Source: Nigrospora sphaerica (lineage: Eukaryota > Ascomycota > Sordariomycetes > Amphisphaeriales > Apiosporaceae). From it: a DNA stretch of 64,000 nt. Positions 48,920 to 61,807 of the stretch are shown here, piece by piece. The DNA lies in the NCBI GenBank assembly GCA_018287875.1, contig JAGVVL010000001.1:6944001-7008000 (forward strand), given 5' to 3'. The position numbers and the translations under genes are program-made. The notes under the pieces are model-generated. The model searched no databases. It saw nothing but the letters and a program-made list of their open reading frames with translations, and was not told the origin of the DNA. Position 1 is the first letter of the stretch. Each line of letters starts with the position of its first letter.

Positions 48920-50545
48920 TTACCAAGTAGGGAAGAGGCTTGACGTGTGGGCGATAATTGCCGCTATGCTCTGTTGGCGTCCGCTCTCGGCGAGCGACGA
49001 GCCGAACTGCGCGGCCGGGCAGTAGCTGGACTTCAGGAAGCAGCGCAGATTATAGCCAAGGTCTGAAGCCGTGCCGTGAAAAAGTCTGAGCGCCTTGGTT
49101 GGAGCCTCCCCGTAGCATAGCGACTCTTTGGATCCCCCCATCGAAGTTTCTGATGATGGTTCCGCCGTCCAAGCTGCGTATGACGCCCGCTTTCGGCCCT
49201 GCGCGTCCTTCCGTGTGTCAAGGCCGGAGGATTGGATTTCTTTCCCCTTCCTGAGCGACGATCTTTTCTGGGATTCCGCCGGTTCTGGCAGGGAAAGAAG
49301 GGCAAGAGACTTGAGGTGTCCAGCGATATGGTCATAAATGTCGTCGCCGGCCTTGTTCCCACATAAAGGACACGGAGAAACCGGTAGTTGCACCCTTCGA
49401 AGGCTCTGCTCTGCCAGGACTCTTAAGCGGGCGTCGCTAAGCGTCGTCTTATGGGCATTTCTCATGTGCCGGATGTACTCTTCGGTGTTTAGAAAGGGGG
49501 CCAGGTCGCGGTGAGTGAGACAACGTGGATGCCTACTGTGCTGCTGCATATGGTTTAGCCATGCGTCTCGGCTGCTATAGAGTATGTATGGCTTGATACA
49601 GCCCTCGCAAAGACAAACGTATATGGCTAGTTCGTCCTCGGCATAATTGCTACAAGCGTGTTTAGCAGTGAATCAACACAACTGAGCCCAAGACTGTTGT
49701 TAATCATTCCCCGCTCACTCGGAAACATTAGCCACTGTTTGAGAAAGCTTGCGGCCTGGCTGTATGATCTGGTCTGTCCTCGGCAAGTTAGCCATGATTG
49801 ATGCCCGCAGAACCGCTTGCGCTACCTTTTGATCTATACAGAAACATCTTGTGTCGATGGAGCATTGAGACAGCGAGTCTGTGTCGAATGGCGTCGGTCG
49901 CAGCGGGGGATTGACTTATTATTTGGCTTTGATAAAGATGCACTTGGGAATCATCCGCTCCGCCTTCATTGTCTTCTAAACGAAGGTCATGTATTTGAGG
50001 GAGCCATGCTTCGGTGCTGGCCCGGTGGATTGTGTTCGAGATCTGGTTGAGGCGATTAAGCTCAGTCTGGATATTGATGACGGATTGTCGAAATCCATTG
50101 ATGACAGGTTGAGAAGAGGCCGTGGCTGCCATGTCTTCCAAGCTGTGGATTTCATGCAAACCTGATATTGAAGGTGAGCATGTTCCAGCTAGTAGAACAT
50201 AAAGAATCAAACAATAGAGGTAAATGCAGAAGCATAAGATTTAGACACATAAAACTCACAGGCCTGCACGCGGAAGTCCAAGGCCTCGAGCAAGCCAGCA
50301 ACAACGCCCTGAACGTTTGGCGCATGCCGGAGGCAATAATCTATCGAGGCGGGCGCCGCACAGAAGACTCTCATGGACTCTGCCCAAGTGGAAAATTTGG
50401 CGCATTGGTCCTCTATCATGGATATCTCTCTGGGGTTGGTTGAGGGGATGTCTTGCAGGCAACTCCGAAAAGACCTCAGGCACCTGCCAGCAGTGACGGT
50501 GATTCCAGACGCCTGCGACTGTGCATCATGGTGCTTGTAAGACAT
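48920..50545 (-). CDS. Zinc-finger protein with a fungal NLR-associated-type N-terminal helical domain
   Basis: Minus-strand exons 50545-50260, 50161-49826, 49773-49719 and 49649-48920; 468 residues, all frames consistent, introns with good donors (GTGAGT, GTGAGC) and CTAAC-like branch points. The N-terminus (about 1-210) is helical: C-L-R-S-F-R-S-C-L, M-I-E-D-Q-C-A-K-F-S-T-W-A, I-D-Y-C-L-R-H-A-P-N-V-Q and ending R-H-K-M-F-L-Y-R-S-K. I recall this pattern from many fungal proteins of unknown function that carry C2H2 fingers. Three Cys/His groups follow at about 236-262, 269-292 and 319-337; the last reads C-P-L-C-G..D-H-I-A-G-H-L-K-S-L-A-L-L-S-L-P. Such fingers accompany fungal NLR-like and defence proteins, but function is unknown. 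Codon use is less GC-rich than in the housekeeping neighbours. It is head-to-head with the protease gene. Confidence 0.78.
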
Positions 50546-51076
50546 AGCCGTAGGTACGAGAGATGTGAATTGGAACAGGGTCGTGTTGACAAGAAGGATC
50601 CAGTTCACCCGACGCAGTATAACATCTGGCTCTCTCTTCTTCTCCTCGACAACAAAAAGCAATTATACACCCCGCTCTGACCGCGATACCATTGGTTGCC
50701 TCGATTAAGGCTGCAGCGTGCGTCCCGGGCAGTGTTTCTTCCTCTCCTGATAGGCGAGACCAATCATCCCCTTGCGGATGATATACCAGCCCGGCCGAGG
50801 GGCAGCAAGAAGCCAAGGTAAGTATTTAAGCCCCCGCAGTAGGGCTCTCAGCTGAGAAGTATCAACCGGGCTCCCAGGGACGTACTGCGCACGGACTATC
50901 TGTCTTTGGTTGATGGATGTCTTGGTAGCCCCCTCTCCCTTGCTTGCGTCCACAACTAGAGGGAAGCCCAAAGTGAGATTGCACACAGCAATCAGTACCG
51001 TAAGATCGACCCCCTAGACCTGTCGCAGACGGCAAGATAAACGGCAGGCATACAGCAGCACCGATACACAGGGAAC
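50546..51076. promoter_or_regulatory. Shared divergent promoter, zinc-finger and subtilase genes
   Basis: A 531-bp interval between the start codons of the two divergent genes. A head-to-head layout allows joint control. No specific factor site is claimed. Confidence 0.55.
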
Positions 51077-54040
51077 ATGGATTCGCACCACGTCTCTCGG
51101 GATGCCGCCGACACAACCCACCTGTTACGCCGCTCCGCCGAAGCGATACTCGAAATGGCACTTGTAGCAAGGGAAACTGAAAGTGCCGAAGTTCACAGAA
51201 TCTTCTACATTGACATGGGGTACAATTGTCTGAGGTTATGTTATCACTCGGAGCCCACTCAGAACAGTGCATCTCAGCCCAACCGCCAAGTGCTGGGAGA
51301 AATCCTGGATTGCCTCGCATCTCTAATCAGCGAACCCGGGCCCCGAGGACCGACAGGAGACGCATCACCGTCGGGATCGCGTCTCGAAATGCTGATCGAG
51401 TGCTGGGAAACTGTTCGGGGACAGGGCTGGGAGGAGAAGTGCCGTTTTGTCAAGACGTGGTTGATGCCTGTGGACTCGCAGGAAAGATGCGGCATGGTGA
51501 AACAAAGTCTCAAGCGGCTTTCGGGCATACTCGACATGAACCATCCCGAGACTCCGTCGCAACGTGTCAACGATGGCTCTCCTATCAAAGCCGATATCGA
51601 ATCCACGCCAGTCGTCTCACAGGCGGCTCAGTCGACTTTCGAGGCCCTCTCTGGTTGCATAAGATGCCCTTGTCACCCTGAAGAAAATTTGGAAGCGGAC
51701 CTTGAGATGAGGACGTATCGGAAGCCCGCCGAATCCAACCACACAGCTGCCAGGAGTTCCACGGAGTCGGGGGAACCGTCTTTCAGAATACGGTTCACCT
51801 TTGATCGAATCTGGAAAGAAATCTTGATCCGCAGCGATGTGGAGAGGGACGGGAATTCGAGCAGACTTCCCCCTTCACTAAAAAGGGTGGAACAGCTGTG
51901 CACCCTCCTCGGCACGGTCCATCCTCCCAAGCGACTGGTGCTGGGCCTCGCCGGAAGCCAGCTGTACAAGGCGGGAAAAGAAACAGGGACCGGGGCTGCT
52001 GAGCCTGTCTCGCTTTCACAACTATTTGAAGAGCAGCCCGGCTATTTCACGGAGAAGATAAGACGGATCCTCTTACTCATGGTCAGCTACACGACTTTTC
52101 AGTTGAGGGATACGCAGTGGCTCCAGCTGGGGTTTGACTCGTCAAACATCCGGTTCCTTCGCATCATCTCTAACGCCTTCTCGAACACCATTCCCTTGAT
52201 GCCTTTTGTTCAGGCAAGGCTGGAAGAGCTACAGGATGGCGACGACGATTCACTGGTCGACTTGAACCTCCAGCACCCTTGCCCCGCAGTTCTCGCCCTG
52301 GCGGTGGTGTTGATGGAAGTATATTTCGTCACGCCATTTGACAAGCTGGCTGAGAAGTACAACACCCCTCTGGAACCCGGATCCATCGCTTATGTCGACG
52401 TGCTTCAGGTTTTTAACGGCGTCCCGGATCCTTGTGCCGAAGGGTGTCGTCTGGCGATTCCAGAAGATTCCCATCTCTTCACCCGCGCCATAGAGGACTG
52501 TTTGGATGTTGAACTTTGGATGGACGAGCAAGGCCGACCTCTCGACCGGGAAACAAGCGGGTCACGTATACTCAAGCACATCATTCGTCCACTCGAACTA
52601 TATCTATCGCAGGGCTTCAGTAAAATACCCTTGGATGGTATTGACGAGTATGCTAGGACTTTGGACTTAAGCAAATGGGGCCAGCCTATCACCAGGCACA
52701 CCACTGTAGTCATCCACAATGGCCCAAACTACGGGACATATAACCGGAAGCCCCCAAGCACTGCCCTGAAACCTGGAAACCTGGGGCCAATCTCAAAAAA
52801 GACGAAACACACGAGTCTTGATTGCAAACCATTGCAGTTTTTCGATGACGAGACAGACGAGGAGGTACATTCGAAAACCAGGTGAGCGTTGTTCATCTCT
52901 GCCGGTTTCAGATAACCTCTGCTTTGGGTGTTTTATAAGTCAACGTCAAAAATATTACCGTTCGTTTTATGTATTCGTAGGAAGCAGAAATACCTAAGCT
53001 GGCGGGCCGAGCACGAAATCGTTCGAGAGAAATTCGTTGTCAATCAGCCTCGCGCGGCGTTGCTTAAACCAGAACCGGTGAAGGTTGCGATTTTGGATAC
53101 GGGCATCGACGTAAGACACGACTATCTCGAAGACCGTGAGTGGACGCTGGGAGGCCAACACAACTGTTACGACAAGGCGCAGAAGAACGTAGAGGATAAG
53201 CACGGTCATGGCACGTTTGTCGCGAGCCTTATACTCGACTACGCGCCCGACGCCGTGCTCTACGTGGTTAAGATCACGGATCGGGAAAACATGAAGCCCA
53301 AGGCCAAGATTGTGGCCGAGGTAAGTGCAATCCAGTTCTCCTACCACTCCCCCCCCCTTCTCTCTTCTTCTCTCGGCTTCGAACGGATACCGACGCTAGG
53401 CCGGCCCCAGGCAATCGACCAGGCCGTCGACTGGGGCGTCGACATCATCTCCATGTCGTTCGGCTGGCCGTCGGCCGACTTTGATGGCTGCGACGCCGTT
53501 CAGGCGGCCCTCGACCAGGCGCACGGCCAGCAGGTCCTCATGTTCGCGGCGGCGTCCAACAGCGGCGGGCGCCGCGGCCGGGCCTACCCGGCGAGCAGCC
53601 CGGGCGTCATCTGCGTGCACTCGACGGGTGTGAACGGGGGCCGGTCCGACTTCAGCCCGACGGCTGAGCGGCACAAGCCCAACTTTGCGACGGTCGGCGA
53701 GTCGGTCGTGTCGGCGTGGCCCGGCGGGGACGGCCGAGGAGGAGGCGGCGGCGTCGTACAGTCTCGGTCCGGCACCTCGTACGCCACCGCCGTGCTGGCC
53801 GGCATCGCCGCCTTCCTGTTGCACTTCGCCCGGCTGCACCTCCCAGGGGACTTGGCAGCGCAGCTGCGGCGGAAAGAGAAGATGGAGGGCCTGCTGCAGA
53901 AATGCGCCGAGCGGGGGCCCGACGCGACGCAGAGGGACGACTACTTGTATGTGCATCTGAGCCTGGACAGGAATAGCCTGTTCGGCCGAAACTTGGACTT
54001 GATCAAGTCCAGTATCACCGAGATGCTGAAGACGCTGTGA
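51077..54040 (+). CDS. Subtilisin-like protease (S8) with DUF7580-like N-terminus, HET-Q2-like
   Basis: Exons 51077-52881, 52981-53320 and 53411-54040; 924 residues. The C-terminal ~290 residues are an S8 subtilase with a complete catalytic set: D641 in A-I-L-D-T-G-I-D, H678 in G-H-G-T-F-V-A, oxyanion N765 in A-A-S-N-S-G-G and nucleophile S838 in S-G-T-S-Y-A-T. There is no signal peptide, so it should act inside the cell. Residues 1-560 are helical and resemble the fungal DUF7580-type region (for example L-R-D-T-Q-W-L and H-P-C-P-A-V-L-A-L-A-V-V-L-M-E-V-Y-F), which I know from other fungal intracellular subtilases. The 3' end lies 105 bp from the end of a convergent gasdermin-like gene. In Podospora anserina, subtilisin HET-Q2 cleaves gasdermin-like HET-Q1 and triggers death. 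Orthology is inferred from context and family. Confidence 0.88.
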
Positions 54041-54145
54041 CGGGGCGGCCGCAAGGAGGAGTGGGATGGGGGGAAGTCTATAATGAGCTAGAATAAGATG
54101 GATGTGGACGTGCGTCCATCTCGACGTCGAACCCAGGCGCTCGCC

Positions 54146-54762
54146 CTACTTGGGAACGGCGCAGAGCACCACATCCGCGCCCTCCCTGAGCTCGTACAGG
54201 TCGAAGTCTTCGTTCTCAGCATACAGGTCTTGGGCCTCCAGCACGGACAGCTCCGGACCACAGGCCGGCGGCTCGTCGCCCTCGTCGCCCAGCATGGCCC
54301 CCTCGCGGTACTCCGTCTCGCTCCGTACCTGAGCGGTAGTCTTGTCGACCCGCAACTCGGTCACGCGGAAGGCGAAGACGAAGTCGCTGGCGCCCTCCCA
54401 CTGGCTCAGGGCCGTCCGGCCGACCCGGCCCTTGAGGCCGGGCCCCACGGCGACGGAGGCGCCGCCTCCGCTCCAGACGGTGCCGTCGACCTCGAGGGCG
54501 TGGCTGCCGCCGACGCTGCGCGCCCGTAGCGTGTGGGCCTCGGCGCCCGTAACCACCTTGACGCCAGTGATGACGTACACGGGCTTGCGATATTTGGAAA
54601 GCTGAAGGTACCGACGGACGTCGTCGGATTCGACGCAGGCCTGGAGGTACGAGGGTGTGGGCACAAACTGGGCCGTTTCGACAGTTTTGAAGACGAAGGT
54701 CTCCTCGTCTCTGGGGGTGCAGCTTATTAACGACGGTATCTCCGGCGCGGCGGGCCTCCTGC

Positions 54763-54810
<48 letters not shown>

Positions 54811-55107
54811 TACTGGCGTGGCAGCTTCTTCCCTGTGGCGAAAGTCGAGACCGACGTCGACGCCGAAGCCGAGAAAGCTGAGGAACTTAGTCAGAACGGA
54901 GAACTGGCCGCTGCGCAGTTTCTCCTGGGTGTAACGGACGCTCCGCTTTTCGGTCCGGAAAACGTCCGAGTCGTTCGGCGGCGGGTTACAGGCGAGGGGC
55001 CGGTCGGGCTTCTTGACCGATGTCATGACGTTGCCCAGCCTGATGGGCCCGTCCGGCGGGGAATCCCACGTCGGCGCGTAGAAATACAGGCGTTCGCGAT
55101 TCGCCAT
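54146..55107 (-). CDS. Gasdermin-like pore-forming cell-death protein (HET-Q1/RCD-1 type)
   Basis: Minus-strand exons 55107-54814 and 54703-54146 give 283 residues, the size of fungal gasdermin-like proteins. The exon junction is uncertain because the intron holds a long homopolymer stack; I used donor GTATTT at 54813 and an acceptor before 54703, the best in-frame option. The N-terminus L-Y-F-Y-A-P-T-W-D-S-P-P-D-G-P-I-R-L-G-N is typical of this fungal family. Gasdermin-like hallmarks are strand K-P-V-Y-V-I-T-G-V-K-V (from about 138) and D-F-V-F-A-F-R-V-T-E-L-R-V (from about 205), which occupy the same order and spacing as the matching strands of animal gasdermin N-domains. The acidic C-terminal tail would be the inhibitory part removed by proteolysis. 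Family known role: membrane pores and regulated cell death. A profile search would settle it. Confidence 0.72.
54762..54810. repeat. Homopolymer stack C9-T28-A12 in the gasdermin-like gene intron
   Basis: Plus strand reads nine C, then 28 T, then 12 A without interruption. It lies within the intron of the gasdermin-like gene. Real homopolymers of this length are rare in fungal introns; a sequencing or assembly artefact is possible. Confidence 0.95.
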
Positions 55108-58025: not shown

Positions 58026-60053
58026 TCACATGATGGCACATGAGGTAACAGTTCTCGCACGTCGTCGGCCAGCACTGATTCCCCCCTCCTCTTCGTCAGC
58101 GTGCAGCAATTGTGCCTCCCTCGCCCGACGCCTACGACGACGCACGCCCGCCCCAGCAGCACCCGCCTCCTCCATGGCTTGCATATAGTGTGCCCACTTG
58201 CGCTCGAGCCGGCTGGCCGAGTCGAACTCGCCGCGAAGCACCCTCTGCGTGTGCTGTTCGACAGTCTGCTGCCACCCATAGAAGCACTTCAGCCCGACTA
58301 TCTCGGTCGGGTAGGTTCGCGTGCTGCCCGACGGACGCCGGATCTCGGCATTCCACGATAGCACTTCGCGGACCCCGGTCCACGTCACCATCTGGCAGTC
58401 GTAGACCACTATGCGCAGACCAATGCGAGGGCGGGACCGGGATGTCGACGTGCGTGCCGCGCGGGAACGCACCATGGCCGCCGCTTCGGCAAGGACCAGG
58501 TCACCGACTCTGGAATTGTCCATCTCTACGTTCTTAAGGCCAATACAGTTCTTGATGACGGGGATCATGCCGGTATCCCCAATGTTCTCGCAGTAGCTGA
58601 TGGAAAGGTGTTCGAGCTTCGGTGCACAGGGAGCCTTGGCCAAATGCTTCGAGAATAGGTCGTTCGTGAGCTCCGACAGGTCCTCCAGCTCCAGATGAGT
58701 AAGTCGGGGGGTGCTGGCGAGAATGGGCTCCAGGGCAGAGTCTCTTAAGGCACTGCATCCGTTGAGCTGTAAACCTTCCAGGTCGGGCGTAAAGTGGCCG
58801 AGAGCCTCGACACCCCGGTTGGTGAGGTTGCGGCAACGACTCAGATCCAGGTGCCGTAGTTTTCTCGGAGGCACAATGGGCCGGTCCGTCAGTATATCAA
58901 TCTCTGGGTTGACACCGTGCATCATGGTCCTCAGGCTGTCGTCGCTGAGCTCAACGCAACCGCTCAACACGAGCCTCTCGAGCTTGTTTGTTTTGAAGAG
59001 GGCGGCGGCCACGTCGATGTTGTTGAAGCCCTTGATCTCGCCAGCACGCACTTCCCGTAGTTTGGGACAGCCCAGGACTACCATTTTGATACCCCTGGCA
59101 TCCATCTGCTGGCACCACGAGACGTTAAATGTCTCCAGCTGGGGGCAGTGCTGTGAGATAATCTTGCAGGTACTGTTGGTCACAGCCGGCAGCCCTGTCA
59201 AGTTCAGGTTGGCCAGGCGGTCATTCGCCTTGATGAGGCTGTGCAACGTCGCTTTTTGAAAATTGCGGCAGCCCTCAAGCGTAGCGTTGATGAGGTTTCT
59301 GCAGGCCTTCACCACAGCTTCGGCGCGCTTGTAGTGCTCTACCTGAACGCAGCCCCTCAGGTTCAGATCCTTGATAAAAGGCCCGGCCGCCACAATGATC
59401 TTGGCGAGCGAGGAGGCTGGTATCTCTTGGTAAAAGTCGGTAGCGTCCAACCTCGTCCACAGCTGGCCGTCGAAGCAGTATTGGTGGAACGCCCTGCTGA
59501 CCCGCGACAGACGGACCAACTCTCTCGGCTCCAAGTACGAGAAGATGTGTATCCGAACCTCGTCGGGGATGCTTGACAAGAAGTCAAAGGGTGGCTTTCT
59601 CGTGGTGCCAGACCTCGATCGGGTGGTGATGAACTCGGCCGGCAAGGCAATAGAGCCAGGGGTCGAACAGGCTTGGGCGCCCTGCTCAATTTTTCGAATA
59701 GCAAGGCGGCTTTCGATGCCCTCGAGAGCCGGGAAGTCGGCGGTCGGACTGTCGGGGGCCGTGCTCGCAAAGTAGCCGGAAGAGGCAGCGTTCGGGGTGT
59801 ACTGAGCGAACGGGGAAGCCCCCGAAAGACTGGCACAGGAGAGACTCCCCTTCGTTCCGTACGGCGAATTGGAGGGGCGAGGCCGCCCGCCCAGCTGCAC
59901 CAACGAGGGCGACGAAGAGATACGCTGGACAGACCTGAGGAATCTCTGTCTCCGTTTCCCTTTCGTCTGACCGTCGAGGGGCGTCGAGGGTGCGAGTGCT
60001 TCCTCTACGACGCTTGGCGGGGTACTGACTTGTTGTACTGAGGGGTGCGCCAT
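58026..60053 (-). CDS. F-box/LRR protein with C-terminal CaaX box
   Basis: A single exon; 675 residues from the ATG at 60053 (GCC ATG G context). The frame is open to 60398, but the extra 115 residues look like translated leader. Residues 1-150 are a Ser/Pro-rich, basic disordered region. The F-box is at about 156-200 (F-L-S-S-I-P-D-E-V-R-I-H-I-F-S-Y-L), the part that binds Skp1 in SCF ubiquitin ligases. About a dozen leucine-rich repeats of the cysteine-containing type (for example L-E-R-L-V-L-S-G-C-V-E-L and L-R-H-L-D-L-S-R-C-R-N-L-T) span about 210-560 and would select substrates. The last four residues, C-A-I-M, form a CaaX box predicted to be farnesylated, comparable to animal FBXL2, and preceded by a basic Arg-rich stretch. 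Membrane-linked SCF function is inferred; the target is unknown. Confidence 0.9.
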   Translation of the reverse strand: MAHPSVQQVSTPPSVVEEALAPSTPLDGQTKGKRRQRFLRSVQRISSSPSLVQLGGRPRPSNSPYGTKGSLSCASLSGASPFAQYTPNAASSGYFASTAPDSPTADFPALEGIESRLAIRKIEQGAQACSTPGSIALPAEFITTRSRSGTTRKPPFDFLSSIPDEVRIHIFSYLEPRELVRLSRVSRAFHQYCFDGQLWTRLDATDFYQEIPASSLAKIIVAAGPFIKDLNLRGCVQVEHYKRAEAVVKACRNLINATLEGCRNFQKATLHSLIKANDRLANLNLTGLPAVTNSTCKIISQHCPQLETFNVSWCQQMDARGIKMVVLGCPKLREVRAGEIKGFNNIDVAAALFKTNKLERLVLSGCVELSDDSLRTMMHGVNPEIDILTDRPIVPPRKLRHLDLSRCRNLTNRGVEALGHFTPDLEGLQLNGCSALRDSALEPILASTPRLTHLELEDLSELTNDLFSKHLAKAPCAPKLEHLSISYCENIGDTGMIPVIKNCIGLKNVEMDNSRVGDLVLAEAAAMVRSRAARTSTSRSRPRIGLRIVVYDCQMVTWTGVREVLSWNAEIRRPSGSTRTYPTEIVGLKCFYGWQQTVEQHTQRVLRGEFDSASRLERKWAHYMQAMEEAGAAGAGVRRRRRRAREAQLLHADEEEGGISAGRRRARTVTSCAIM

Positions 60054-61807
60054 GGCTGTTCTGACTCCGGTGGTTGTCTGAAACGTCCCTGGATCACCTG
60101 GGCGAGCCCACACACTGCCCGAATAATGCAATTGGGGTGGGACACGGGGGAGGGGAACGGACAAGGCAAAATGCCGCGAAGAAGGGGAACCGATTGCGTG
60201 TAAATCAAGAGACCCCTGTGGGTGTAAATGCTGGCTCCGTTGGGCTCCCCAGCGAGCTTCGGACGGGCGAGTGCGGGGTGCTGAGCAGAGAGCGTGGTGG
60301 AAGCCGTGCGACAAGAAAGGGCGGCTTTGAATTCTGGCGGATCGAGCAGATGATCTTTCCTCGTCAGCGAAGCCAAGAGCTGACGCCAAGCATGGCATTC
60401 AGGCCTGCCGCGATGATTGTCCCGTCGCCTGTCGAAGTGAGAGAAGGTTTACCGGCGTGCCAGTGGTAGGCGAAGGAGGCAGGGCGGCCAGAAAGGTTGG
60501 AATCGAGGCAGGCCATGCGCCGAGTAATACGAGCAGCCCTTAGTTAAACGCCAATCCCAGGCCTCGGCTCGTTGAAAATGGCAACCAGGCAAAACGGGTG
60601 GAGCAGAAAAGAGAAGAGATAGAAGAAGAAAGAAAAAACCACCCCGAGCTACTTGGTTGTTAGGCGGTGGTCGTGTCCACAAGAAACAAACAGACGGAAC
60701 ATCGACCCGTGGGGGGTTCCCAGGCTGGCCGGTCTCCGTGTTAGTCCAGAGGGTTCGTTCGATGCCACACTAGGACGCGAGGTCGACGACTCTAGAGTGA
60801 CTTAAGGTTCGTTTGTACCTGAACCCGTCGTCACCTCGTTTATATCCATTGTCATCGCACCCCCAGTGTCGCTATCGGGCCGGTAGGTTCGTCTAGGTTG
60901 GTATCTTGTCGTGCCGAGGGGGGTGGAATGCGGGACGGGAACAGCAATAGAAACGAATATCACACGAGCAGAAGCAATACCCCCCAGGTTGGACAGAAAC
61001 AACCCATCTGACCCCCCCAGGCTTAACGGTTTCTTATCGTGGCGATACATCCATGGACGGCTCCGTGGGCACCCTATCGCACTCGAGTGGGAAGAGGTAC
61101 TACCGGTGATGGATTGTGGTGGTGGGCCAAGGGGAAAACGCCCCCTTCCTTCCGCTTGATCCACCCGAGCCGGTAAGCAGCCTGGACGCCTAGGCACGAG
61201 AGTGACCCTTGCAAATCTGTGTCTTGGAGGGGGAGGGGACCCTCAACTTTCCATTCCATCCCCACCACTATTGGAATCCCATGCACCCCGATTTTGGGGC
61301 GCCCCTCAGGAGCGCTGCCGCCCTATTCACCTGCCACTCCCCAGCTGACTTTTTCTGCAACTAGCTGCCCGCCTGCCGGAATATCGAACGCGAATCACGG
61401 GTGGTGATCGAGTGAGCGTGTGCGTGATCCCCTCCCAGCTTCCGGGAAGATTCGCCATGCTGTAGATAAGAAGTCCGATGACAGACATCGCATGCCACCA
61501 TGGCGGCCCCCGGCTTCCTCCGCAGGTCCCCGCGCCGATTGCTACAAGTAAAAAGCACTGCGGCCATGCACGCGTCCGGGCGATGGTGGCGAACATCGTC
61601 CAGCGACGGCGCTTCGCCATCCGCCATTAACCATTCAGCCGGCTGGCCGGCCAGGGGCGGCCACTGGGTTAGAGAAGGTCTAATGAATCCCCCAGCGGAC
61701 CGGGAACCGAGTTCCCGTCCGAGGCGGGCACGTTGGCGGGTGCTTTCGTGGAACCTCGGGAATGGTTTGTAAGGCAGACCCGTGGCTTGCATGTGTGGTC
61801 CCCGGGA

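Follow-up and report, generated by a model that had tools for sequence, protein, structure and literature searches.

A gasdermin gene next to a multidomain subtilase gene in Nigrospora sphaerica: a probable two-gene cell-death module of the fungal gasdermin/Q2L kind

Fungi encode gasdermins that correspond to the pyroptosis proteins of animals. About 1900 fungal gasdermins are on record, of which ~80% are clustered with proteases and ~60% with proteases of class S8 (PMC10197012, PMC10989679). In Podospora anserina, the subtilisin HET-Q2 trims ~5 kDa off the C-terminus of the gasdermin HET-Q1, probably after F238 (PMC12881547, PMC10989679). In the two-gene clusters termed fGSDM/Q2L, a gasdermin is encoded beside a multidomain protease, S8 being the commonest class (PMC12881547, PMC10197012). 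Here, we describe a locus from a 64,000-nucleotide stretch of the Nigrospora sphaerica genome (the window; assembly GCA_018287875.1, contig JAGVVL010000001.1, positions 6,944,001 to 7,008,000), in which a gasdermin gene and an S8 subtilase gene are convergent, the gasdermin stop codon beginning 105 bp beyond the protease stop. The locus is a further member of the published fGSDM/Q2L two-gene cluster class and very probably encodes a regulated cell-death module of this kind. Its features are (window coordinates):

51077-54040, plus strand: Q2L-type S8 subtilase gene, 924 residues in an open spliced frame, stop codon at 54038-54040
51077-52881, 52981-53320 and 53411-54040, plus strand: protease exons, separated by GT..AG introns
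51098-51661, plus strand: N-terminal helical bundle, residues 8-195 (AlphaFold2 model of protease exon 1; mean predicted local distance difference test score, pLDDT, 79.5)
51752-52612, plus strand: DUF7580 domain, a predicted pseudokinase-like regulatory or sensor domain
53078-53824, plus strand: Peptidase S8 domain (from Pfam and the catalytic codons), with the intron 53321-53410 inside it
53096-53098 (D641), 53207-53209 (H678), 53558-53560 (N765) and 53777-53779 (S838), plus strand: catalytic codons, placed from the exon coordinates
54146-54710, minus strand: gasdermin exon 2, including the stop codon, with the match to RCD-1-1
54149-54289, minus strand: predicted inhibitory C-terminal tail, 47 residues, 5.08 kDa
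54711-54832, minus strand: predicted position of the conserved phase-2 intron; the acceptor CAG ends at 54711, and there is no GT or GC at the 54832 end
54762-54810, minus strand: homopolymer tract T12-A28-G9 within the intron, the only match to this pattern in the 51.6 Mb genome
54835-55107, minus strand: gasdermin exon 1, with the ATG at 55107 and 91 complete codons, which aligns to relatives

With HET-Q1/HET-Q2, the locus shares the combination of a gasdermin and an S8 subtilisin, a C-terminal gasdermin tail of ~5 kDa and a profile match. However, het-Q1 and het-Q2 are described as idiomorphs (PMC12881547), whereas a single genome carries both window genes next to each other; the pair does not have the idiomorphic arrangement of the het-Q1/het-Q2 incompatibility system. 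HET-Q2 is given as 388 residues (PMC10989679), while the window protease has 924, including the helical bundle and DUF7580, a contrast drawn from the description and not from the HET-Q2 sequence. The first-pass annotation had labelled the locus as being of the het-Q1/het-Q2 type. It was right about the two components, but their form is different, namely a same-genome cluster with a multidomain protease. RCD-1-1 and RCD-1-2 of Neurospora crassa (257 and 244 residues) are shorter than the window gasdermin and are switched on by allelic co-expression without cleavage, as far as PMC12881547 describes them. The window locus differs from other fGSDM/Q2L clusters in having DUF7580, read as pseudokinase-like, in its sensor half, and a gasdermin gene that lacks a canonical splice donor in this assembly. 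MLKL and fungal HeLo-kinase proteins also have a helical bundle, ahead of a domain of the pseudokinase-like type predicted for the window protease; the output domain of the window protein is, however, a subtilase, and its bundle has no Pfam HeLo match. The proteases of bacterial gasdermin operons differ in architecture. These operons share with the locus a weak gasdermin homology and the protease neighbour (PMC12881547).

By its sequence, the minus-strand gene at 54146-55107 is a fungal gasdermin gene. It consists of two coding frames that need an intron to join them. Exon 2 alone matches Neurospora RCD-1-1 (8jyz_A, E=1.7e-6); together with the listed homologues, this match rules out a fortuitous reading frame. 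Exon 1 is matched by the relative P0106 (E=2e-13). A profile built from 65 relatives finds RCD-1, HET-Q1 in its pore structure (9uv9_A, E=9.7e-11) and, more weakly, bacterial gasdermins (8sl0, E=3.8e-5; 7n51, E=5.2e-5). The first-pass annotation had pointed to two gasdermin-like strands, KPVYVITG and DFVFAFRV, and had proposed a profile comparison with gasdermins. Both strands are in exon 2, inside conserved stretches, and the comparison returned the gasdermins just named. RCD-1 is the closest solved relative in sequence and also in fold, the latter judged from a model of the closest relative, P0001, which with P0126 forms an intact pair in Monosporascus. HET-Q1 (9uv9) is not among the Foldseek rows listed; the structure library used ends in April 2026, which may explain this, and it is not counter-evidence. 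Pfam assigned no family to either gasdermin exon of the window, and none over the cut-off to seven relatives; PF26164, precomputed for P0076 and P0086, was not recovered in the Pfam scan.

Ahead of the tail stands a conserved motif of the GAM type with a hydrophobic residue behind it (GAM-L in the window). The tail is short. It is predicted to inhibit the gasdermin. Its acidic character, already remarked upon in the first reading of the sequence, amounts to a net charge of -12 over the last 47 residues. The motif is followed by one of L, F, Y and M in 61 of the 66 sequences and is absent from the remaining five. Subtilases favour a large hydrophobic residue at P1. We propose, by analogy with HET-Q2, that the cut would be made after the hydrophobic residue, in keeping with this preference, the exact site within the linker being a guess. 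The chain in the HET-Q1 structure has 232 residues and ends short of F238; an ungapped extension of the alignment would put F238 about six residues beyond the proposed cut.

The protease has a Peptidase_S8 domain (Pfam, E=3.8e-25) with the complete catalytic set of the Q2L-type S8 domain. D641, H678, N765 and S838 had been reported in the first-pass annotation, and all four are in place in the three-exon model. The S8 region (residues 630-862) retrieved 330 homologues, 120 of which are listed. DUF7580 (Pfam, E=1.8e-15, residues 226-512) and S8 are both present in 42 of 42 proteases scanned, which were picked from the listed homologues. The possibility of a secreted protease was set aside on the presence of DUF7580 in all of these. 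We suggest that DUF7580 is a pseudokinase-like sensor behind the helical bundle. The "pseudo" in this label refers to the HRD and DFG motifs, which, by eye, are missing from the corresponding parts of the window domain and from the consensus. For HeLo, no Pfam match was obtained in the N-terminal bundle of the window protein or of the 42 relatives, the bundle never having been searched alone. No publication on DUF7580 turned up in the literature searched.

The genome (51.6 Mb) has three DUF7580 loci. At one of the others (L004/L017, G000:C1:1623538-1625313), a HeLo match lies ~650 bp ahead of the DUF7580 match on the same strand; this is apparently one HeLo and kinase-like gene with an MLKL-like order, elsewhere in the genome. 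The third (L003, G000:C9:368658-372395) has a helical-looking frame ahead of it, with no Pfam family over the cut-off. Identically scoring HeLo matches occur on C2 (82 kb) and C16 (L019/L020) and on C17 (58 kb) and C18 (L021/L022). The short contigs with these twins may be duplicate pieces of large contigs, or the duplications may be real.

Contig sizes and locus names indicate that the gasdermin-protease pair is conserved across relatives. Among 113 gasdermin homologues, 38 share a contig with a listed protease homologue. A contig was counted as shared when the longest contig of the gasdermin was equal in size to one bearing a listed protease, equal size being taken as identity (113 gasdermin rows against 119 protease rows; one row per list had no size and was dropped). 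No absence can be read from the remaining 75 rows, as only 120 of the 330 protease matches are listed and many rows stand for short pieces of metagenomes. Judged by the names, the locus tags are consecutive in 14 pairs, 13 of these being among the 38 (for example DL767_006202/006203, FSARC_9471/9472 and PFICI_01035/01036). The two proteins also diverge together: gasdermin and S8 distances correlate with r=0.74, a value reached in 0 of 5000 partner shuffles, over the window and 28 of the 38 linked pairs (those present in the alignments; 10 were dropped).

In N. sphaerica itself, two single-protein searches (51.6 Mb, 33 contigs) found one gasdermin locus, although distant paralogues could escape such searches; a weak third match (E=0.5) was left out of the count. 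Q2L proteases are defined by a gene at most 10 kb away from that of a gasdermin, and here the distance is 105 bp, as first reported for the convergent neighbour, which starts with the ATG at 55107. With one gasdermin locus and three DUF7580 loci in the genome, such an adjacency is not expected by chance (a rough estimate gives ~1e-5 to 1e-4). Sequence, the fold of the closest relative and conserved linkage bear out the gasdermin identity and its pairing with a protease.

By analogy with the Podospora work, as far as described in PMC12881547, the protease would cut the neighbouring gasdermin. The short acidic tail would keep the gasdermin inactive, while the helical bundle and the pseudokinase-like domain would restrain the intracellular subtilase. 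When the sensor half perceives its cue, the S8 domain would cut the gasdermin linker after the GAM-hydrophobic motif. The freed N-terminal gasdermin domain would then oligomerise into plasma-membrane pores, resulting in cell death. A role in allorecognition, the other reading offered in the first-pass annotation, is at most a possibility.

The two proteins were compared at conserved columns (the same residue in 85% or more of the other sequences). In the window gasdermin, 0 of 56 such columns are substituted, a score shared by 13 of 66 sequences, so the coding sequence is not decaying. Of the 219 conserved columns of the protease, 28 are substituted and 3 are gapped in the window, which ranks 65th of 68 by number of substitutions. 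In the pseudokinase part, 16 of 74 columns are replaced versus 0-10 in 28 linked relatives; by fraction, the window is second of all 68 (P0182 has 16 of 63, and the next ones have 14-15 of 75-76). In the first 225 residues, 4 of 22 columns are changed, against 0-6 in the linked relatives, which places the window sixth of 68; in the S8 domain, it is seventeenth, with 7 of 101 against 0-12. At 50-72% gasdermin identity (22 window comparisons, 239 between relatives), similarity is 27.5 for the window versus 37.3 between relatives in the N-terminal region, 40.4 versus 50.3 in DUF7580 and 60.0 versus 63.2 in S8. The lower similarity of the N-terminal region and DUF7580 and the 16 replacements show rapid change of the sensor half in this lineage, whether through relaxed constraint or through diversification; the window is not alone in this.

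The gasdermin intron is more problematic. Two conserved positions flanking the junction are exactly 19 residues apart in 59 of 65 relatives. The remaining six have spacings of 4, 7, 12, 16, 25 and 34, which may be gene-model errors. The intron position in the relatives is deduced from proteins and from open reading frames called in metagenomes. Fourteen relatives have only exon 2: in seven, unrelated residues run up to S/D-E-E-T-F, one starts there and six start further in. This boundary marks the acceptor position. The acceptor CAG is present in the window, and a phase-2 junction there yields the spacing of 19. A length of 283 residues, as given in the first-pass annotation, is obtained with a GT at gene offset 294 and an AG at 404; this AG is 7 bases past the conserved acceptor, and the spacing becomes 23 residues, four extra, which is found in 0 of 65 relatives. 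Broken frames had been named there as a finding that would speak against the module, and this is partly the case in that the conserved 5' splice site of the gasdermin is non-canonical. The missing donor may be a true lesion, a sign of an alternative junction that is tolerated, or a fault of the assembly; the allele as assembled may or may not produce a full-length gasdermin.

It is a serious possibility, to which we give slightly less than even weight, that the gasdermin is splice-defective in this isolate, so that the protease has no working partner and the module is decaying or dormant. GT or GC is absent at the conserved junction, the alternative in-frame sites give the aberrant spacing, and the unspliced frame hits a stop soon after a lysine run; the 49-bp homopolymer tract inside the intron and the unusually many changes in the pseudokinase half point in the same direction. 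However, the fully conserved gasdermin columns and a high third-position GC content indicate that any loss must be recent. The alternative GT/AG pair stays in frame and adds four residues, the intron position in relatives is an indirect one, and a single assembly may contain an error. Donor loss and tract could both be assembly or base-calling errors in an ordinary functional allele, since the anomaly is near a T12-A28-G9 run that occurs once in 51.6 Mb and the exons are otherwise intact at the 56 columns tested. We consider this rather unlikely, as 22 bp separate the tract from the donor position, which does not itself lie in a homopolymer longer than 3 bases. One may also speculate that the pair is partway along the route that, according to PMC10197012, leads by "pseudogenization" to an allorecognition system, the gasdermin having just been silenced by donor loss and the control of the protease being relaxed. 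The sensor half would be shedding conserved residues while S8 stays intact, and fusion with a strain having an intact gasdermin could trigger death, by analogy with HET-Q2 meeting HET-Q1. This is improbable, and slightly more so because the window is only second of 68 in pseudokinase changes.

Two further explanations leave the gasdermin uncut. It might be activated by allelic partners without cleavage, as described for its closest solved relative RCD-1 (PMC12881547), with the protease serving otherwise. The RCD-1 proteins are, however, shorter than the window gene, 61 of the 66 sequences carry a tail behind the GAM-type motif, and at least 38 of the 113 homologues are linked to a protease; we regard this explanation as highly improbable. 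Alternatively, the adjacency might be kept for another reason, as protease action on this gasdermin is deduced from other systems. We regard this as very unlikely, given the frequency of proteases, and of S8 proteases in particular, beside fungal gasdermin genes (PMC10989679, PMC10197012) and the two Podospora pairs that were tested (PMC12881547). Several points nevertheless weigh against the module as proposed. Cleavage and killing by this pair are predictions, and its expression is presumed. The conserved intron has neither GT nor GC as donor in this assembly. With 16 of 74 pseudokinase columns replaced, the protease may be regulated unlike those of the relatives, and the correlated divergence could follow shared species history alone. 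In the structure comparison suggested in the first-pass annotation, the P0001 model shows a gasdermin fold resembling RCD-1, but its confidence is modest (mean pLDDT 62.1), the similarity is middling (best Foldseek template modelling score 0.40/0.56, root mean square deviation 7.5 A), and the modelled protein is this relative and not the window protein.

On either side of the pair lie other genes. Minus-strand frames at 48920-50662, with a zinc-finger-like C/H spacing, are head to head with the protease gene. Their match to zf-Di19 is below threshold, and they were set aside as a part of the module as Pfam gave no family over the cut-off. Beyond the gasdermin gene, an F-box protein with leucine-rich repeats is encoded at 58029-60398 (minus strand).

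The cue sensed by the protease partners of gasdermins is described as a major open question (PMC12881547). Reading DUF7580 as pseudokinase-like provides a concrete sensor hypothesis for a group of these proteases. If the gasdermin allele is indeed splice-defective and the protease intact, the way in which a defence pair gives rise to het-Q-like allorecognition could be tested at this locus in its natural state; if not, the locus adds one member to a class that is already well surveyed. Its interest lies in the sensor reading and, more speculatively, in a possible snapshot of the pseudogenization route.
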